Origin: Acidobacteriota bacterium
GTDB lineage: Bacteria; Acidobacteriota; Holophagae; Holophagales; Holophagaceae
DNA: 64,000 nucleotides
Reading direction: 5' to 3'
Assembly (NCBI GenBank): GCA_021794095.1
Contig: JAJYRN010000005.1
Location: 1-64,000 of the forward strand
Shown: in pieces, positions 4,888-56,868 of the stretch
Position numbering within the stretch: position 1 is the first letter of the stretch
Layout: every line of letters starts with the position of its first letter
Notes under the pieces: model-generated
What the model was told of the DNA's origin: nothing
Seen by the model: the letters and a program-made list of their open reading frames with translations, nothing else
Database searches by the model: none
Made by a program: the position numbers and the translations under genes

Positions 4888-4939
4888 GGAGGCTCCTCCC
4901 GGGGGCGCGGTGGCCATGAGGACGGGTTCAGGCTGGAGT

Positions 4940-4988
4940 GCGGGGGGACATCGCGAGCAAGGCGAGCAGGCGGTCCCCCCGTGGAGCA
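4940..4988 (+). repeat. Dispersed GGGGGGAC...GTCCCCCC hairpin element, copy 1
   Basis: This 49-bp element has arms GGGGGGAC and GTCCCCCC around a partly conserved interior (ATCGCGAGC...GAGCAGGCG). It is identical to the copy at 5030-5078, in the same orientation, 90 bp away. It lies in the leader between the adaptor and ATPase genes. The same core recurs at 25253-25502 and, inverted, at 56772-56868. Confidence 0.9.
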
Positions 4989-5029
4989 AGGGCCCTGAGG
5001 GAGGCGGAGGCCGACCGAAGGGCGGGGGA

Positions 5030-5078
5030 GCGGGGGGACATCGCGAGCAAGGCGAGCAGGCGGTCCCCCCGTGGAGCA
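5030..5078 (+). repeat. Dispersed GGGGGGAC...GTCCCCCC hairpin element, copy 2
   Basis: This is the second identical 49-bp copy. It ends at the base next to the adaptor gene's stop codon (stop at 5079-5081 on the minus strand). The 41 bp between the two copies (AGGGCCCTGAGGGAGGCGG...) are GC-rich and show no gene. Confidence 0.9.
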
Positions 5079-6299
5079 TCAGTTGTTCTCGTCGTCCTTC
5101 TCCACCTTCTTCCGGGTGGGATCCTCGAGACAGACCTGCTCGCCGGGCTTGAGGCCGGAGAGGATCTCCACCCGCTCGAGGGTGGCGATGCCGGTGGTTA
5201 CGGGCACGACATCGAAGTAGTCCTTCCAGTGGTCGGAGAGCCAGATGAACTTGGCGCGACCATTCAGGCCGTCCCGGGCCCGGGCCAGATCCTGGTTCGA
5301 GAGGTGCTCCTTCAACCGGTACACCACCGTCTGGCCGTCGCGGCGCTGGAGGGCCTCCAGCGGCACGCTGATGGCCTTGTCTCGCTTCTCGCCGAGGATC
5401 TCCACATTGGCGCTCATGCCGGTGCGGAAGGCCTCCGACAGCTGGTCCAGGGCCACCTCGACCTTGAAGACCTTGATCTTCTCGACCAGGTCGGCGGCGG
5501 GCGCCACGAACCGCACCCGCCCCGTGAAGGATTGCCCCGGATAGGCGTCGAGGGTGATGCGGACCGGCTGGCCCACCTTGACCTTGGCGATGTCCACCTC
5601 GTTGAGGTTCACCCTCACGATCAGGGACTTGAGGTCGGCCACCGTGAAGACCACGGTGCCGGCGTTGAAGCTGCTCACGCCGGAGGTGATGGTGTCGCCC
5701 AGTTCCACCCCCCGCTTGATGACCACGCCGTCCATGGGGGCGGTGATCCGCGCCAGCTGGGTGGAGGCATTGCCGCTGATGGGGATGCCGCGATCCTCCA
5801 CGATCTGGTAGCGGGTCTGGGCGGCCTTGTAGGTTTCATCGGCCAGATCGCGGGTGGTCTTCGCGTTGCGATAGACCTGCTCGGAGATGAGGCCGGCCTT
5901 GAAGAGTTCCGACTGCTGGGCGAAATCGCGCTCGGCGTTCTTGAAGCTCACCCGGGCCTGGGAGACGCTGCCCTGCACGTCGGAAAGGGTCTGCGCCTGA
6001 TTCACGTCGGGTTCGACCTCGGCCAGGACCTCGCCGCGGTGGACCACCGCGCCTTCGCGGACCTTGAGGGCCACGATGCGGCCGGAGACGGCCGACTTCA
6101 CATCCACCTTGGTCAGGGGATCCACGACGCCCACTTCCCGCACGCTCACCTGCAGGTTCTCGGCCTGCACCTTCCCCAGCCGGAAGGGGGTGCTGGCTCC
6201 GGCTTTCCGGTCGGAACCGTCTCCGCCGCGCAGGATGAAGAACATGCCGGCCGCCAGGGCGATGGCGCCTGCGGAGACGTACATCCAACGCTTCTGCAT
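5079..6299 (-). CDS. Periplasmic adaptor (membrane fusion protein) of the ABC exporter
   Basis: The 406-residue protein belongs to the HlyD/RND membrane-fusion family. An N-terminal membrane anchor (YVSAGAIALAAGMFFILRGG) is followed by a lipoyl-like half (VDVKSAVSGRIVALKVREG), a coiled-coil hairpin (about residues 100-170), the second lipoyl half (ITAPMDGVVIKRGVELGD) and beta-barrel and membrane-proximal domains. The C-terminus is charged (KKVEKDDENN). The start at 6299 gives the anchor directly. An upstream in-frame extension to 6500 lacks any such signal. It should bridge the inner-membrane permeases to a TolC channel; one TolC-like gene is 13 kb away at 19691-21199. Confidence 0.9.
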   Translation of the reverse strand: MQKRWMYVSAGAIALAAGMFFILRGGDGSDRKAGASTPFRLGKVQAENLQVSVREVGVVDPLTKVDVKSAVSGRIVALKVREGAVVHRGEVLAEVEPDVNQAQTLSDVQGSVSQARVSFKNAERDFAQQSELFKAGLISEQVYRNAKTTRDLADETYKAAQTRYQIVEDRGIPISGNASTQLARITAPMDGVVIKRGVELGDTITSGVSSFNAGTVVFTVADLKSLIVRVNLNEVDIAKVKVGQPVRITLDAYPGQSFTGRVRFVAPAADLVEKIKVFKVEVALDQLSEAFRTGMSANVEILGEKRDKAISVPLEALQRRDGQTVVYRLKEHLSNQDLARARDGLNGRAKFIWLSDHWKDYFDVVPVTTGIATLERVEILSGLKPGEQVCLEDPTRKKVEKDDENN

Positions 6300-10850: not shown

Positions 10851-13760
10851 TCAGAAGGAAAGGCGGGCGCCCCACTGGACCTGCCGGGGGTTGTAGATCC
10901 AGCTGTAGGCCTGGTTGAGCTGGGGGTTGGTATCCGAGCTGGAACTGGCCACCTGCTGGGAGAGGTAGGTGTCCTGGCGGTTCAGGAGGTTGAACACATC
11001 CACCGACAGGGTGAGCTTGACCTTGCGCACGATGGGGATATCCCGCCGCAGGCCCAGGTCCAGGGAGGTCAGGGAACCGGCTCGCTGGGTGTTGCGGCCC
11101 GTGTCCTGGCCGTTCACGAAATAGCGGTCGTTGTTGTTGTTGCCGTCCTTGTTCATGTCCCTGTAGCTGTAGAGCAGGGTGTAGGGGGTTCCGCTCTGGT
11201 AGCGCAGGGAGAGGGAGGCCAGGATCCCCGTGAAGCGCTTGTCGAGGTAGCTCACGTAGCCAGTGATCACGTTCCGGCGATCCGTGTCGGCGTAGCCCCA
11301 CTGGGCCGCCAGGTTGTTGTAGTCCTGGATGGAGATGCCGGAGTAGTTGCGTTCGTTGGAGTCGCTGTCCTTGTTGATGGCGTAGGTGTAGTAGAGCTGG
11401 GCATCCAGGTTGCTGCCGTCCTTGTGGTACTTCAGGCTGAAGGTGTAGGCGTGGTAGAGGCTGGTGGCATCCGAGGAATACATGCCCTCGGTGTAGTAGG
11501 ACGAGTTGGGACGCGGACCGTAGAGAATGCGGCCCTGGGCGCTGGTGCCTGTGGGAGCGCCGATGTTCAGGTCGCCGGTGCGCTCCAGACGGTTGCCCTT
11601 CGCGTAGGTGGCGGACAGGCCGAGCACCAGGTCGCGGAAGAAGGGGCGCTCAACGCCGATGTTCACCCGGTCGGTATAGGGGTTCTTGAAGTCAGGATTG
11701 AACGTCCAGATGCTGGCCTTGGGGGGGGTGCCGCCGAGGCCATTGAGGGTGGAATTGAGATAGTAGGGATTGCTGGCGTTGAAGGAGGAGCCGATGGGGA
11801 TGCCATAGGTGGCCGCCTGGGCCGGCTTGAAGTCCACCGAGCCAGTGCGGATGGCGTTGGCCGCGTACACCTGGTAGAAGAACACCGACGGGGTGGTGCT
11901 CACATAGCGGCCCGCGCTGCCACGGACGACGGTCCGGTCCTTGTCGAAGGAGGGGGTCCAGGTGAAGGAGAAGCGGGGCGAAAACTCGCTGTCGCTGGGG
12001 ATCTTGCCCGTGAGGGGCATGGGGGTGGCCAGCGGGTTGCTCATGTTGAGGATGGGGTAGTCCGGGTTCTCCTGGCGGTCCCAGCGCAGGCCCAGGCCCA
12101 GCTTCACGGTATCCACCGGGCGCCAGTCCGCCTGCACGAAGGCGGCTTCCTGCTTGTAGCTGGTGCTGAAGAGGCCGGCCTGGTGGACATCCTGGGTGAT
12201 GCCGAAGTTCTGACGGTAGGTGGACCACTTCCCCGCCCTGAAATCATTCAGGCTGTTGAAGAAGTACACGCCCTGCCAGTTGCCGGCGAAGAACTCGGAC
12301 ACATCAATGCTGTTGTAGTCAATGCCGCCCTTCACCTGCAGGGTGGGCGTCACGTAGCTGAGGTTTTCCTGGAACTCCGTGCGCTTGGTGTTGTATTGCC
12401 GGTCGTAGGGGTAGGCGCCGTAGTAGCCCACATGGGAGATGCTGACTTCCGGGGTGGTGACATAGGTGGAGCGGGGCATGCCGTCCTTGTTCAGGCTGAT
12501 CCGGGCTTCGTTGAGCCAGTTGGCATTGATCACCCAGTTCCACTGGAGCAGGTAGCTGTCGGTGGTGACATCATCCGAAGCCCGGTTCTCCGAAGCCGCC
12601 GTCGTGCCCGAACCGGTGTCGCCGGTGTATTTCGAGTGGTTGATGCGGAACTGCAGGGTGTGGTCGGTGTTGATGTTCCAGTCGAAGCGGGCGAACACCG
12701 TATCCGAATCCCCTTTGCTGGTGTAGTCGCCGCCCTTGGCGGCAAGCACGGCATCGTTGGAATAGGTTGCTGGATCGAGGGTCACTGGGTAGAGCCCGCC
12801 CCAGACCTGGTGGATCGGATTGGTCTGGCGCTGGGCATCGTAGGCGACGAAGTAGAACAGCTTGTCCGGGATGATCGGGCCGCCGGCGCTGAAACCGAAC
12901 TGCTCCAGCTTGTAGCTGCCCACGGGATTGGTGGTGACCTTGCCATTCGGCTGGATGATGGTGGGGCCGGCCGCCTGCATGCTTGAGGGGCGCTTGTAGT
13001 AGAAGAGGCTGCCGGTGAAGTCGTTGGTGCCGTTCTTGGTGATGGCGTTCACATAACCGCCGCCCATGCGGCCGAATTCCGCCGAGGCGCCGTCGGTGAC
13101 GACCTGGTACTCACGGATGGCCTCGATGGAGATGGTGAAGGGGGTCTTGCCCTCCGCCGCGCCCTGGGCGCCACCGAAGAAGGGTTCGTTGTCATCGGCG
13201 CCATCAATGTTGATGGAGGTGTTCACACCGCGCTGGCCAGCGATGGCCAGGTTGCCGCGGCTGCTGTCCACCACCACCTGGGGGGCCAGGGTGGCGAGGT
13301 TGGTGAAGTTGCGGCCCAGAACGGGCAGGTTGTCGAGGTTATCCGGGGAGATGAAGGCGGCGGCGCTGGCCCGATCCGAATCCACCTTGGAGGTGTCGGC
13401 GACCACTTCCACCACCGCGCTGGCTTCTGGAGCGAGGCGGATGGTCAAAGGGGCGGCGTCGCCCAAGTTCAGGGTGACCTTGACATTGCTGGCGGCCTGG
13501 AAGCCGGCTTTGGTAACGGTCACGGCGTAGGGGCCCACGGGCAGGGCGGTGGCGACGTAGCGGCCGCCGGCATCCGTCAGTACGGTGCGCAGGAAGCCCG
13601 TCTCCTGGTTGCGGATGACCACCGTGGCGCCGGCGACCGGGGCGCTCTGCTTGTCGAGCACTCGGCCCGCCAGCTGGGTGCTGACCCCTTGGGCGCACAG
13701 GGGTGCAGCCGCCACGATCAGGGTCAGAAGGGAAAGACCGCTTATATGCCTGAATTTCAT
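10851..13760 (-). CDS. TonB-dependent outer-membrane receptor with N-terminal carboxypeptidase-regulatory domain (2)
   Basis: The 969-residue protein has a signal peptide (MKFRHISGLSLLTLIVAAAPLCAQG), a carboxypeptidase-regulatory domain (VLDKQSAPVAGATVVIRNQE), a plug (LPVLGRNFTNLATLAP, INIDGADDNEPFFGG) and a beta-barrel ending ARLSF. GGAGGAACC gives a good ribosome site for the ATG at 13760. It shares motifs with its downstream paralogue (IPDKLFYFV, ARFDWNIN) but is clearly diverged, so they probably bind different ligands. The S55 peptidase gene is divergent, leaving a 178-bp shared promoter region. Confidence 0.9.
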   Translation of the reverse strand: MKFRHISGLSLLTLIVAAAPLCAQGVSTQLAGRVLDKQSAPVAGATVVIRNQETGFLRTVLTDAGGRYVATALPVGPYAVTVTKAGFQAASNVKVTLNLGDAAPLTIRLAPEASAVVEVVADTSKVDSDRASAAAFISPDNLDNLPVLGRNFTNLATLAPQVVVDSSRGNLAIAGQRGVNTSINIDGADDNEPFFGGAQGAAEGKTPFTISIEAIREYQVVTDGASAEFGRMGGGYVNAITKNGTNDFTGSLFYYKRPSSMQAAGPTIIQPNGKVTTNPVGSYKLEQFGFSAGGPIIPDKLFYFVAYDAQRQTNPIHQVWGGLYPVTLDPATYSNDAVLAAKGGDYTSKGDSDTVFARFDWNINTDHTLQFRINHSKYTGDTGSGTTAASENRASDDVTTDSYLLQWNWVINANWLNEARISLNKDGMPRSTYVTTPEVSISHVGYYGAYPYDRQYNTKRTEFQENLSYVTPTLQVKGGIDYNSIDVSEFFAGNWQGVYFFNSLNDFRAGKWSTYRQNFGITQDVHQAGLFSTSYKQEAAFVQADWRPVDTVKLGLGLRWDRQENPDYPILNMSNPLATPMPLTGKIPSDSEFSPRFSFTWTPSFDKDRTVVRGSAGRYVSTTPSVFFYQVYAANAIRTGSVDFKPAQAATYGIPIGSSFNASNPYYLNSTLNGLGGTPPKASIWTFNPDFKNPYTDRVNIGVERPFFRDLVLGLSATYAKGNRLERTGDLNIGAPTGTSAQGRILYGPRPNSSYYTEGMYSSDATSLYHAYTFSLKYHKDGSNLDAQLYYTYAINKDSDSNERNYSGISIQDYNNLAAQWGYADTDRRNVITGYVSYLDKRFTGILASLSLRYQSGTPYTLLYSYRDMNKDGNNNNDRYFVNGQDTGRNTQRAGSLTSLDLGLRRDIPIVRKVKLTLSVDVFNLLNRQDTYLSQQVASSSSDTNPQLNQAYSWIYNPRQVQWGARLSF

Positions 13761-23797: not shown

Positions 23798-25243
23798 ATG
23801 AGCCTGGATCCTTCCACCATCGGCCGGTACAAGGTCCTCGGAACCCTTGGCGCGGGAGCCATGGGTACGGTGTATCTGGCCGAAGATCCGCTACTCAAGC
23901 GGGGACTCGCCATCAAGGTGGTTCGTGAAGGGACTGGGACCGCGGAGATCCTCGAACGCTTCAAACGCGAGGCCGAGATCTCCGCCCGCTTGAACCACCC
24001 GAACGCCATCACCGTCTTTGATGTGGGCGAGGAACCCGGCCTGGGGCCCTACCTGGTCATGGAACACGTGGACGGCCAGTCTCTATCAGACCTTCTGCGC
24101 CGCGGGCGGCTTCCGGCCGAGGCCGCCCTGGACCTCCTATTGCAGGCCGCCAGTGCTCTGGAAGCGGTGCATGGTCTGGGGATTCTCCACCGCGACATCA
24201 AGCCCGGGAACTTCCTGGTCACCCAGGAGGGTCGCCTCAAGTTGATGGATTTCGGCATCGCGCGGGGGGACCAGGGACGCCTCACCAGCACCGCTGTCTT
24301 CCTGGGCACGCCGGCCTATGCGGCGCCGGAACTCCTCGCGGGTGCACGGGCGAGTGAAGCCACGGACCGCTGGGCTTTCACCATGACCGCCTACGAGATG
24401 CTGGCCGGCGACCTCCCCTTCGCGGGCGACAGCGTGGGCGCCATCCTCTACCGCATTGCCCACGAAGCGCCGGTGCTCTCGCCGGACCTTCCTCCGGCCG
24501 TGGCCGCTGTTTTCCTGCGCGCCCTTGAGAAGGATCCCGCGGCCCGGTTCCCGGATCTGCGCACCTTCCTGATCGCCCTCCTGGAGGCCCTGCCGCTGAG
24601 CGAGGGGGTCCGTGAGGCCTTCCGGGGCCAGGTGGCCAACCTGGCGCGAACCACCGGAACCCTGCGCCTGGCTCGTTCCGCACCCTCCTGGACCCGGAGT
24701 CCCTGGGCCTGGGGCGGGGGCGTGCTCGTGGCTGGTCTGCTCGGTGGGCTCCTCCTGTTCCGCCCCCAGGCGAGCCGGACCCTATCCATCGAATCGCGTC
24801 CCGGCGGTGCCCAGGTGACCCTCGATGGCACTCCCCTCGGGCGCACACCCCTGCGCCAGGTGGTGGTGAAGGGCAAGGCGGAATGGCTCCGGCTGGAGAA
24901 ACCGGATTATCAGCCCCTGGAATACCGCCTCCAGCCCTCGGATCGGGACATCGCCCTGCGCCTGGTGCCCGCGCCCTTCGAGGTCCACGTGGTGACGGAA
25001 CCTGCTGGGGCGGAGATCCTCCTTGATGGTTCAGCCAAGGGCACCACGCCCCAGGTGCTGCAGGTTCCGGGAGATGGCCCCCACGTCCTCCACCTGAAGC
25101 TGGAGGGCTATCTGCCTTGGAACACCACCCTGGAGCGCCACAAGCCCCTGCCGGATCCCATCCGACTGCAGAAGACGCGGGGCCGGAAGCTGTCCGAAGA
25201 GGGCAAGCTCAAGAAGTTCTTCAAAGGAATCTTCGCGAAATAG
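23798..25243 (+). CDS. Membrane Ser/Thr protein kinase with two C-terminal PEGA domains
   Basis: The 481-residue protein begins with a complete Hanks-type kinase domain: GAGAMGTVYLAED glycine loop, ATP Lys40 (AIKVV), catalytic HRDIKPGN (Asp133), DFG at 151-153, GTPAYAAPE activation segment and RWAFTMTAYEML. One membrane segment follows (about 303-321). Outside it are two PEGA repeats (IESRPGGAQVTLDGTPLG; VVTEPAGAEILLDGSAKG) and a basic tail (KKFFKGIFAK). PEGA domains commonly bind surface or periplasmic material, so this looks like an envelope sensor kinase. No cognate phosphatase or substrate is adjacent. Only 63 bp separate it from divergent lipB. Confidence 0.92.
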   Translation: MSLDPSTIGRYKVLGTLGAGAMGTVYLAEDPLLKRGLAIKVVREGTGTAEILERFKREAEISARLNHPNAITVFDVGEEPGLGPYLVMEHVDGQSLSDLLRRGRLPAEAALDLLLQAASALEAVHGLGILHRDIKPGNFLVTQEGRLKLMDFGIARGDQGRLTSTAVFLGTPAYAAPELLAGARASEATDRWAFTMTAYEMLAGDLPFAGDSVGAILYRIAHEAPVLSPDLPPAVAAVFLRALEKDPAARFPDLRTFLIALLEALPLSEGVREAFRGQVANLARTTGTLRLARSAPSWTRSPWAWGGGVLVAGLLGGLLLFRPQASRTLSIESRPGGAQVTLDGTPLGRTPLRQVVVKGKAEWLRLEKPDYQPLEYRLQPSDRDIALRLVPAPFEVHVVTEPAGAEILLDGSAKGTTPQVLQVPGDGPHVLHLKLEGYLPWNTTLERHKPLPDPIRLQKTRGRKLSEEGKLKKFFKGIFAK

Positions 25244-25252
25244 CCAAGTCCG

Positions 25253-25502
25253 ACGAGGGGGGACATCGCGAGGCGTAGACAAGCAGGCGGTCCCCCCTCG
25301 TTGATGCCAGACGCGGTGTCCCGGCTTGGCCGGGATAGCGCGTGAGGGTGCACGAGGGGGGACATCGCGAGGCGTAGACGAGCAGGCGGTCCCCCCTCGT
25401 TGATGCCAGACGCGGTGTCCCGGCTTGGCCGGGATAGCGCGTGAGGGTGCACGAGGGGGGACATCGCGAGGCGTAGACGAGCAGGCGGTCCCCCCTCGTT
25501 GA
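25253..25502 (+). repeat. Tandem array of the dispersed hairpin element (99-bp period, 2.5 units)
   Basis: Hairpins start at 25253, 25352 and 25451, each 99 bp apart and nearly identical; the first differs by one base in the loop. Each has ACGAGGGGGGAC and GTCCCCCCTCGT as a perfect 12-bp stem around ATCGCGAGG...GAGCAGGCG. The 49-bp linkers carry a second hairpin, TCCCGGCTTGGCCGGGA. The array fills the gap from 9 bp after the kinase stop to 2 bp before the purE stop codon, and may end both transcripts. It is not a CRISPR: there are no unique spacers. Confidence 0.93.
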
Positions 25503-25504
25503 TA

Positions 25505-25996
25505 TCAGGGCAGCCGGTCGTTGAGCAGCACCTTCTGGGTCTGGGCCTCCCGGTAGGCCCGCAGGCGGGCGCGGAGGGTCTCGTCGTTGCCAGCGAGAAT
25601 AGCCGCGGCGAGGAGCGCGGCGTTCACCGCGCCCGCCTTGCCGATGGCGAGGGTGCCGACCGGGATGCCCGCCGGCATCTGCACGATGGACAGCAGCGAA
25701 TCCAACCCGCTCAGGGCCTTGCTCTGCACGGGCACCCCCAGAACCGGCAGAAGCGTCTTGGCGGCGGCCATGCCCGGAAGATGCGCGGCCCCGCCGGCGC
25801 CCGCGACGATCACACGCAAGCCGCGGCCTTCCGCCTGCTCGCAGTACTTGAACAGCTTGTCCGGCGTGCGGTGGGCGCTCACAACCTCAGCCTCGAAGGG
25901 GATGCCGAGTTCCCGCAGCGTCTCCGCCGCGTGCTCCATCGTTTCCCAGTCTGAGCGGCTGCCCATAATGAGGCCCACCAGCGGGCGATCAGGCAT
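25505..25996 (-). CDS. purE: N5-carboxyaminoimidazole ribonucleotide mutase PurE
   Basis: The 163-residue protein is full-length PurE, which converts N5-CAIR to CAIR in purine synthesis and acts as an octamer in the cytosol. Key motifs: [26 protein letters not shown] (catalytic His), [12 protein letters not shown] and [24 protein letters not shown] with [13 protein letters not shown]. The start at 25996 gives [16 protein letters not shown], the expected N-terminus, and GGGAGG is 7 bases upstream. Two extra copies of this start lie upstream in a tandem duplication. purK is not next to it; purF is at 43886. Confidence 0.95.
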
Positions 25997-26099
25997 CGAG
26001 TACCTCCCATGAGAGGCCGTTCGCCGGCATCTCAAACCTGCCGTCTGAGCCAGCGAAGTCGGCGAAGAAGATGAGGCCCACCAGCGGGCGATCAGGCAT
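25989..26099 (-). CDS. Mini-ORF 2 upstream of purE (36 codons, from the tandem duplication)
   Basis: The copied purE start reads [10 protein letters not shown], then runs into [14 protein letters not shown]...WEVLDA and stops. The stop overlaps the true purE ATG in ATGCCTGA. It has the same ribosome site as purE (GGGAGG). If translated, it could couple to purE by re-initiation. Whether the peptide itself matters is unknown. Confidence 0.35.
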
Positions 26100-26202
26100 C
26101 GAGTACCTCCCATGAGAGGCCGTTCGCCGGCATCTCAAACCTGCCGTCTGAGCCAGCGAAGTCGGCGAAGAAGATGAGGCCCACCAGCGGGCGATCAGGC
26201 AT
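26092..26202 (-). CDS. Mini-ORF 1 upstream of purE (36 codons, from the tandem duplication)
   Basis: Identical peptide to mini-ORF 2, but preceded by GGGAGGTGACCC, a good Shine-Dalgarno that may be the original purE signal. Its TGA overlaps the ATG of mini-ORF 2 in ATGCCTGA, so ribosomes could pass along a chain of three starts. Confidence 0.35.
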
Positions 26203-26296
26203 GGGTCACCTCCCGGGAAAAGTCGAACAAAAACAAGGATGCCCCCTAACGTCCTGCTCCGCACCTTCCGATTCACTCTCTACCCAAGGAGGTCTC

Positions 26297-56736: not shown

Positions 56737-56771
56737 ACCAGGCTCTTCGTCCTGCCACCGTCTCGACATAA

Positions 56772-56868
56772 ACGAGGGGGGACCGCCTGCTCACTTTCGT
56801 TCGCGATGTCCCCCCTCGCGCACCCCCATGGTGTGCCCCGGCCAGGCCGGGACACGCCATCTGGCATG
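56772..56868 (-). repeat. Dispersed hairpin element with its linker hairpin (inverted copy)
   Basis: On the minus strand this reads the same composite as the 25-kb array: TGTCCCGGCCTGGCCGGGGC linker hairpin, then CGAGGGGGGAC...GTCCCCCCTCG (56773-56818), with a variant loop (ATCGCGAACGAAAGTGAGCAGG). It lies 10 bp after the PilZ stop and directly upstream of the HEAT gene. Confidence 0.9.

Follow-up and report, generated by a model that had tools for sequence, protein, structure and literature searches.

The closest described systems are the REP, BIME and REPIN sequences, short imperfect palindromes with a strand-asymmetric interior that occur in many intergenic copies, form clusters and lie downstream of genes (PMC3733652, PMC3116915). 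Their end motif overlaps stop codons: REPs of the GTAG type often supply the TAG stop to their neighbours, and REPs of the CGTC type have no transposase (PMC3733652). In E. coli, according to the summary in PMC12306157, a REP less than 16 nt away from a stop codon stalls ribosomes and reduces translation, and only about 11% of the predicted ones are so close to a stop. Insertion sequences of the IS200/IS605 type and their non-autonomous derivatives have subterminal hairpins near both ends, lack terminal inverted repeats, and insert at a fixed tetranucleotide that is repeated at the far end; palindromic elements of Rickettsia are found in frame within coding sequences (PMC10969869). The unit described here shares the traits of anatomy and placement just listed with the REPs and with the IS200/IS605 elements, its CTGA edge overlapping TGA stops as GTAG overlaps TAG, and one copy has the in-frame position of the Rickettsia elements. 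It works like a REP but is not a tagged REP, and is best called an orphan REP-like element.

The window, that is, the whole stretch of 64,000 nt analysed, belongs to a genome of 2.99 Mb (28 contigs, 99% complete; G000) whose genus is probably Geothrix, judging from the public Holophagaceae record closest to its purE. An earlier note on the window had described a palindrome of 46-50 bp with conserved arms at three loci. A pattern match confirmed six hairpins at three places, with arms starting at 4942, 5032, 25257, 25356, 25455 and 56776, where shuffled sequence gave a mean of 0.02 matches. All six share the pattern GGGGGGAC-ATCGCGA…GAGCAGGCG-GTCCCCCC; as had been claimed, arms and interior are fixed, the interior being asymmetric (ATCGCGA ... 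GAGCAGGCG), and the loop varies. The palindrome is real, but it is not the whole element: alignment of the flanks revealed a second, upstream hairpin in the former 'linker', and the hairpin first seen (hairpin 2) makes up half of a larger unit, about 99 bp long.

Read in gene sense, the unit opens with CTGA, which often includes the stop (TGA) of the gene before it. After a spacer of 6 nt comes hairpin 2, joined by some 15 nt of linker to hairpin 1, and a further CTGA closes the unit; the stop codon is about 6 nt from the stem foot and 9 nt from the G6 arm. In plus orientation the order is TCAG, hairpin 1 (ACGNGGTGTCCCGG-CTTGG-CCGGGACACCNCGT), GGGGGTGCACGAG, hairpin 2 (GGGGGGAC-AT-CGC-GA-GCC-GAA-GGC-GAGCAG-GCG-GTCCCCCC), then TCGTT(C/G)ATG and TCAG, with 99 bp from the left TCAG to the right one. 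Hairpin 2, which is asymmetric, carries an AT bulge and an internal loop. Its loops fall into two classes: in the short one, 3 nt close a top stem of 2 bp, and most congeners have 1-11 copies of it; the long one (GCC-GAA-GGC) has been amplified in the window genome and in a sister genome, G027. Tandem arrays run head to tail, and the period was exactly 99 bp in 12 of the 14 examined, the others having periods of 90 and 102 bp. The parts found in the window are as follows.

4936..4986, plus strand: outer of two short-type hairpin 2 copies (3-nt loop), where the adaptor and ABC-ATPase genes meet (pattern match; covariance model, 70.8 bits)
4991..5024, plus strand: hairpin 1-like stem GCCCT...AGGGC between the two adaptor-locus copies (read from sequence; position analogous to hairpin 1 in relatives)
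5026..5076, plus strand: hairpin 2, short type, inner copy, its core ending 10 nt from the adaptor stop codon (pattern match and covariance model)
5079..5082, minus strand: CTGA including the TGA stop of the HlyD/MacA-like adaptor
25251..25303, plus strand: hairpin 2, long type, array unit 1, without a complete hairpin 1 on its left side (pattern match and covariance model)
25311..25343, plus strand: hairpin 1 between array units 1 and 2, ACGCGGTGTCCCGG-CTTGG-CCGGGATAGCGCGT (read from sequence)
25350..25402, plus strand: hairpin 2, array unit 2 (pattern match and covariance model)
25410..25442, plus strand: hairpin 1 between array units 2 and 3
25449..25501, plus strand: hairpin 2, array unit 3, its core ending 11 nt from the purE stop codon (pattern match and covariance model)
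25505..25508, minus strand: CTGA including the TGA stop of purE
56770..56821, minus strand: hairpin 2 with a loop of intermediate length, PilZ/HEAT-repeat intergenic region, minority orientation (pattern match and covariance model)
56828..56860, minus strand: hairpin 1 of the PilZ copy

The genes around the first locus encode the HlyD/MacA-like adaptor (stop at 5079) and a MacB-like ABC ATPase and permease; those at the other loci encode a PEGA-domain protein kinase (stop at 25243), PurE (stop at 25505) and a PilZ protein (56879). The neighbours named in the earlier note were thereby confirmed. Its placement of the element or its linker within 0-10 bp of a stop codon needs a correction: hairpin 2 follows the stops at 5079 and 25505 in gene sense at 10-11 nt, but the PilZ copy has the opposite orientation, and its hairpin 2 is about 65 nt from the stop. 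A hairpin copy is also found at the end of the adaptor gene in G008, G012, G028, G061 and G004, which makes six genomes with the window's own, and a three-unit array occupies the corresponding place at purE in G027 (L152). The loops of the purE array are nearly identical within the window genome and all different in G027, a pattern suggesting that one lineage underwent homogenisation recently. The purE gene itself has a tandemly repeated 5' end (25968-26225, two exact copies of 103 bp and a partial third), each copy carrying a ribosome-binding site, ATG and first codons; since the period is not divisible by three, the upstream copies enter short alternative frames.

Folded as RNA, hairpin 2 reaches -31 to -35 kcal/mol (z about -4 to -5), and it folds as single-stranded DNA too. 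Among 37 distinct hairpins, two adjacent pairs of its outer stem underwent 14 and 15 double-sided changes, and the inner stem changed from GC to AU in four; the covariation score was reached by none of 500 shuffles. For hairpin 1, pair 7-33 was CG in 15, GC in 10, TA in 6 and AT in 2 (33 of 36 distinct sequences). Both stems are thus maintained by compensatory change. Such changes would be expected from a function of the RNA or of the single-stranded DNA, and self-templated correction of imperfect palindromes during replication may be a third source. One decayed unit (L228, G027:C77:18335-18713) has kept both TCAG edges and hairpin 1 and lost hairpin 2, and shows how units erode.

The genome and its relatives were then searched with a covariance model of the hairpin. 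It gave 67 hits in the window genome, about 49 of which were inspected together with their flanks, and 119 in G027; the exact core alone matched 44 times in the window genome, compared to 0 for a reversed-pattern control. Within the genus, 45 of 47 genomes had at least one model hit (range 0 to 119, most congeners 1-11). Few other copies or random placement relative to genes, the outcomes that the earlier note had set against its own reading, were not what was found. Among the families of the class covered by the search, the hairpin occurred in one, Holophagaceae, and in none of the others. No exact match was present in IMG/VR (phage carriage), and none in PLSDB (plasmid carriage); Rfam 15 gave no window match at gathering score, and none at one locus at E up to 1. 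No description was found in the literature on Geothrix or Holophaga repeats. The unit is dispersed in genomes of Geothrix-like bacteria of soil and sediment, with a recent burst in two closely related ones, G000 and G027.

Comparison of genomes at three loci gave both filled and empty sites. At the first (C8:186k), the unit is present in G000 and G027, and a single TCAG joins the same two genes in G020, G066, G022, G069 and G036. The second (C20:40k) is empty in seven relatives, some of which show just one TTCA(G) there, and the third (L263) is filled in G027 and empty, with a single TCAG, in the window genome. There is thus one CTGA before insertion and CTGA at both edges after it, although filled and empty sites do not fully separate a target duplication from a motif borne by the element. 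The left edge remains TCAG even at sites with TCAA, TTAG or ATTA on the right. Since these loci exist in both states, the unit is mobile. Its edges are CTGA, and the description of it as a dispersed, mobile, REP-like element with a conserved fold is borne out. The consensus of 99 bp is open in four of six frames. One copy in G027 (L258, about 558-656; G027:C155, hairpin 12789-12841) lies in frame within a coding sequence, read from its translation rather than by a family search as HypF-like, to which it adds 33 residues.

Placement relative to genes was determined with a home-made, simple gene finder based on codon usage. The 33 hairpin clusters of the window genome inspected with their flanks lay outside called genes, and two of the placements were divergent. 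At 24 of the 33 loci, a stop codon belonging to the right-hand gene, on the opposite strand, was found 9-17 nt from the hairpin core, most often at exactly 11 nt. A set of 41 loci, most of them from other genomes but including three of the window's own and a few duplicates, gave the same spacing in about 30. Between co-directional genes the sense orientation prevailed, 14 to 3. Only 1 of about 58 stops beside units was TAG, compared to 16 of 51 in window genes. One copy (L133, G006:C2, hairpin 1957-1991) ends about 10 nt upstream of an apparent tRNA-Ala gene, not at a stop codon.

The association with 3' gene ends that the earlier note proposed is therefore present, but it has to be set against the target itself. 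CTGA is the commonest stop context (19 of 51 window genes), and 15 of 40 intergenic CTGA sites in the window are stop codons (8 of 11 between convergent genes). Against this baseline, the excess at stops is about two-fold (Fisher p = 0.004, for a small baseline of 40 sites and with the home-made gene caller). A first baseline, in which 12-14% of 'noncoding' TGA or CTGA were stops (p about 5e-14), was dropped, as truncated genes at locus edges had swelled the noncoding pool. A function specific to RF2, which would concern TGA and TAA but not TAG stops, was also set aside, as the CTGA target accounts for the stop usage. We conclude that the association is mostly a by-product: the genome is compact, CTGA is the target, and harmful insertions are lost. 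A modest part of it is left unexplained.

A link with a RAYT transposase had been proposed as well. The family PF01797 (Y1_Tnp), which covers IS200 transposases and RAYTs, was found in the E. coli control but was absent from the window genome and from G027, where 87% completeness makes the absence weaker. It was present in 5 of 47 genomes of the genus and 13 of 77 of the family, and the family's Y1 genes that were examined had no hairpin within some 1.5 kb. The Y1 elements of G067 and G019 have ends unlike those of the unit; G067 holds five near-identical IS200-like elements (L141, L145, L147, L149, L151) with TTAC-type ends, and no hairpins. The RAYT link was accordingly rejected.

Placed beside the known systems, the unit matches REPs as an imperfect palindrome of 20-40 bp with numerous intergenic copies (the model gave 67 hits in 3.0 Mb) and in its downstream preference (24 of 33 loci adjoin a stop codon), and like the CGTC REPs it comes with no transposase. 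It differs from REPs in having neither the GTAG nor the CGTC tag (its stem feet are ...GCACGAG and CTCGTT(C/G)ATG..., its edge motif TCAG/CTGA), and in consisting of two different hairpins in a fixed order over 99 bp, with head-to-tail arrays of constant period and CTGA at both edges. The repeat-flanked RAYT gene that goes with GTAG REPs was not found, no RAYT being present in the burst genomes. A MITE derived from IS200/IS605 would call for a Y1 parent with the unit's ends, and those of G067 and G019 differ. Unlike the Rickettsia elements, nearly all copies are intergenic. The hairpin foot is at the same distance from the stop as in the stop-proximal REPs of E. coli, but in E. coli only about 11% of the predicted ones come so close (PMC12306157), whereas most copies of the unit do.

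We favour, as reasonably probable, a non-autonomous mobile element of Holophagaceae, orphan and REP-like, that targets CTGA and gathers after stop codons. A trans-acting enzyme of the HUH/Y1 type, now lost or not recognised, would cut at CTGA and copy the unit in the form of folded single-stranded DNA. The HUH type is suggested solely by the anatomy (hairpins close to both ends, a fixed tetranucleotide, no inverted termini), which suits such enzymes; since no transposase is tied to the unit, we infer this mechanism of copying. As many intergenic CTGA are TGA stops, and insertions in coding or 5' regions would be lost, copies would build up just after stops. Several orthologous positions are kept between species, which counts against this reading, as does the roughly two-fold excess at stops over the CTGA baseline, and fits a selected function as well. 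Such a function, unlikely in our view, would be that of a cis-acting 3'-UTR RNA element (ribosome pausing, protection of RNA 3' ends, or a terminator lacking U) selected at a fixed distance from the stop, its spread being incidental. The spacing of 9-12 nt fixed in most loci across species, the retention of loci such as the adaptor gene in six genomes, the compensatory changes, the 14 to 3 orientation bias and the stalling of ribosomes by E. coli REPs at most 15 nt from a stop (PMC12306157) all speak for it. It fits poorly with a recent burst limited to two genomes, polymorphic sites, tandem arrays, a copy inside a coding sequence and others far from any stop, and the near-absence of TAG stops (1 of about 58) suits the CTGA target better.

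The unit might also be a mobile 3'-UTR module that inserts preferentially at stop codons by an enzyme or route other than Y1/RAYT (for example, RNA-templated or coupled to translation) and sets a ribosome-pausing hairpin at a fixed distance; we regard this as distinctly unlikely. That the unit is a classical REP/REPIN driven by a RAYT that was missed seems highly improbable: asymmetrically bulged imperfect palindromes, paired hairpins and 3'-end placement are as in REPINs and BIMEs (PMC3733652, PMC8266576), but the profile that detects the E. coli control finds nothing in either burst genome, the examined Y1 genes of the family have no hairpin nearby, and the stem foot is untagged. We give hardly any credence to a MITE that derives from an insertion sequence of the DDE type and duplicates 4 bp of its target. 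The presence of TCAG on either side of the unit in filled sites and once in empty ones would agree with it; however, neither end is an inverted repeat of the other (TCAGACG... and CATGAACGAGG), the duplicated motif is identical at nearly every site, and the left edge is TCAG even where the right one reads TCAA, TTAG or ATTA.

As to the effect of the CTGA-targeted element on its hosts, the earlier note had argued that it is not simply a terminator, and this stands: at the 4940 and 25253 loci the stems have no T-run, hence no U-tract, behind them, and an intrinsic terminator was rejected for these GC-rich stems. This, together with copies between co-directional genes such as those for the adaptor and the ABC ATPase, makes simple termination unlikely. 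With its foot within about 10 nt of the stop, the hairpin would fall within the range at which E. coli REPs stall ribosomes, and by analogy stalling of terminating ribosomes is the most likely effect. Copies that are retained would probably reduce how strongly the upstream gene is expressed, or stabilise 3' ends within operons. The near-constant distance from the stop makes the copies a natural set for testing the effects of post-stop hairpins on translation. In Holophagaceae, a burst in two genomes with polymorphic sites, set against dozens of copy-poor relatives, makes feasible a comparative hunt for the mover of a REP-like repeat without a transposase, a question that the CGTC REPs raise too.
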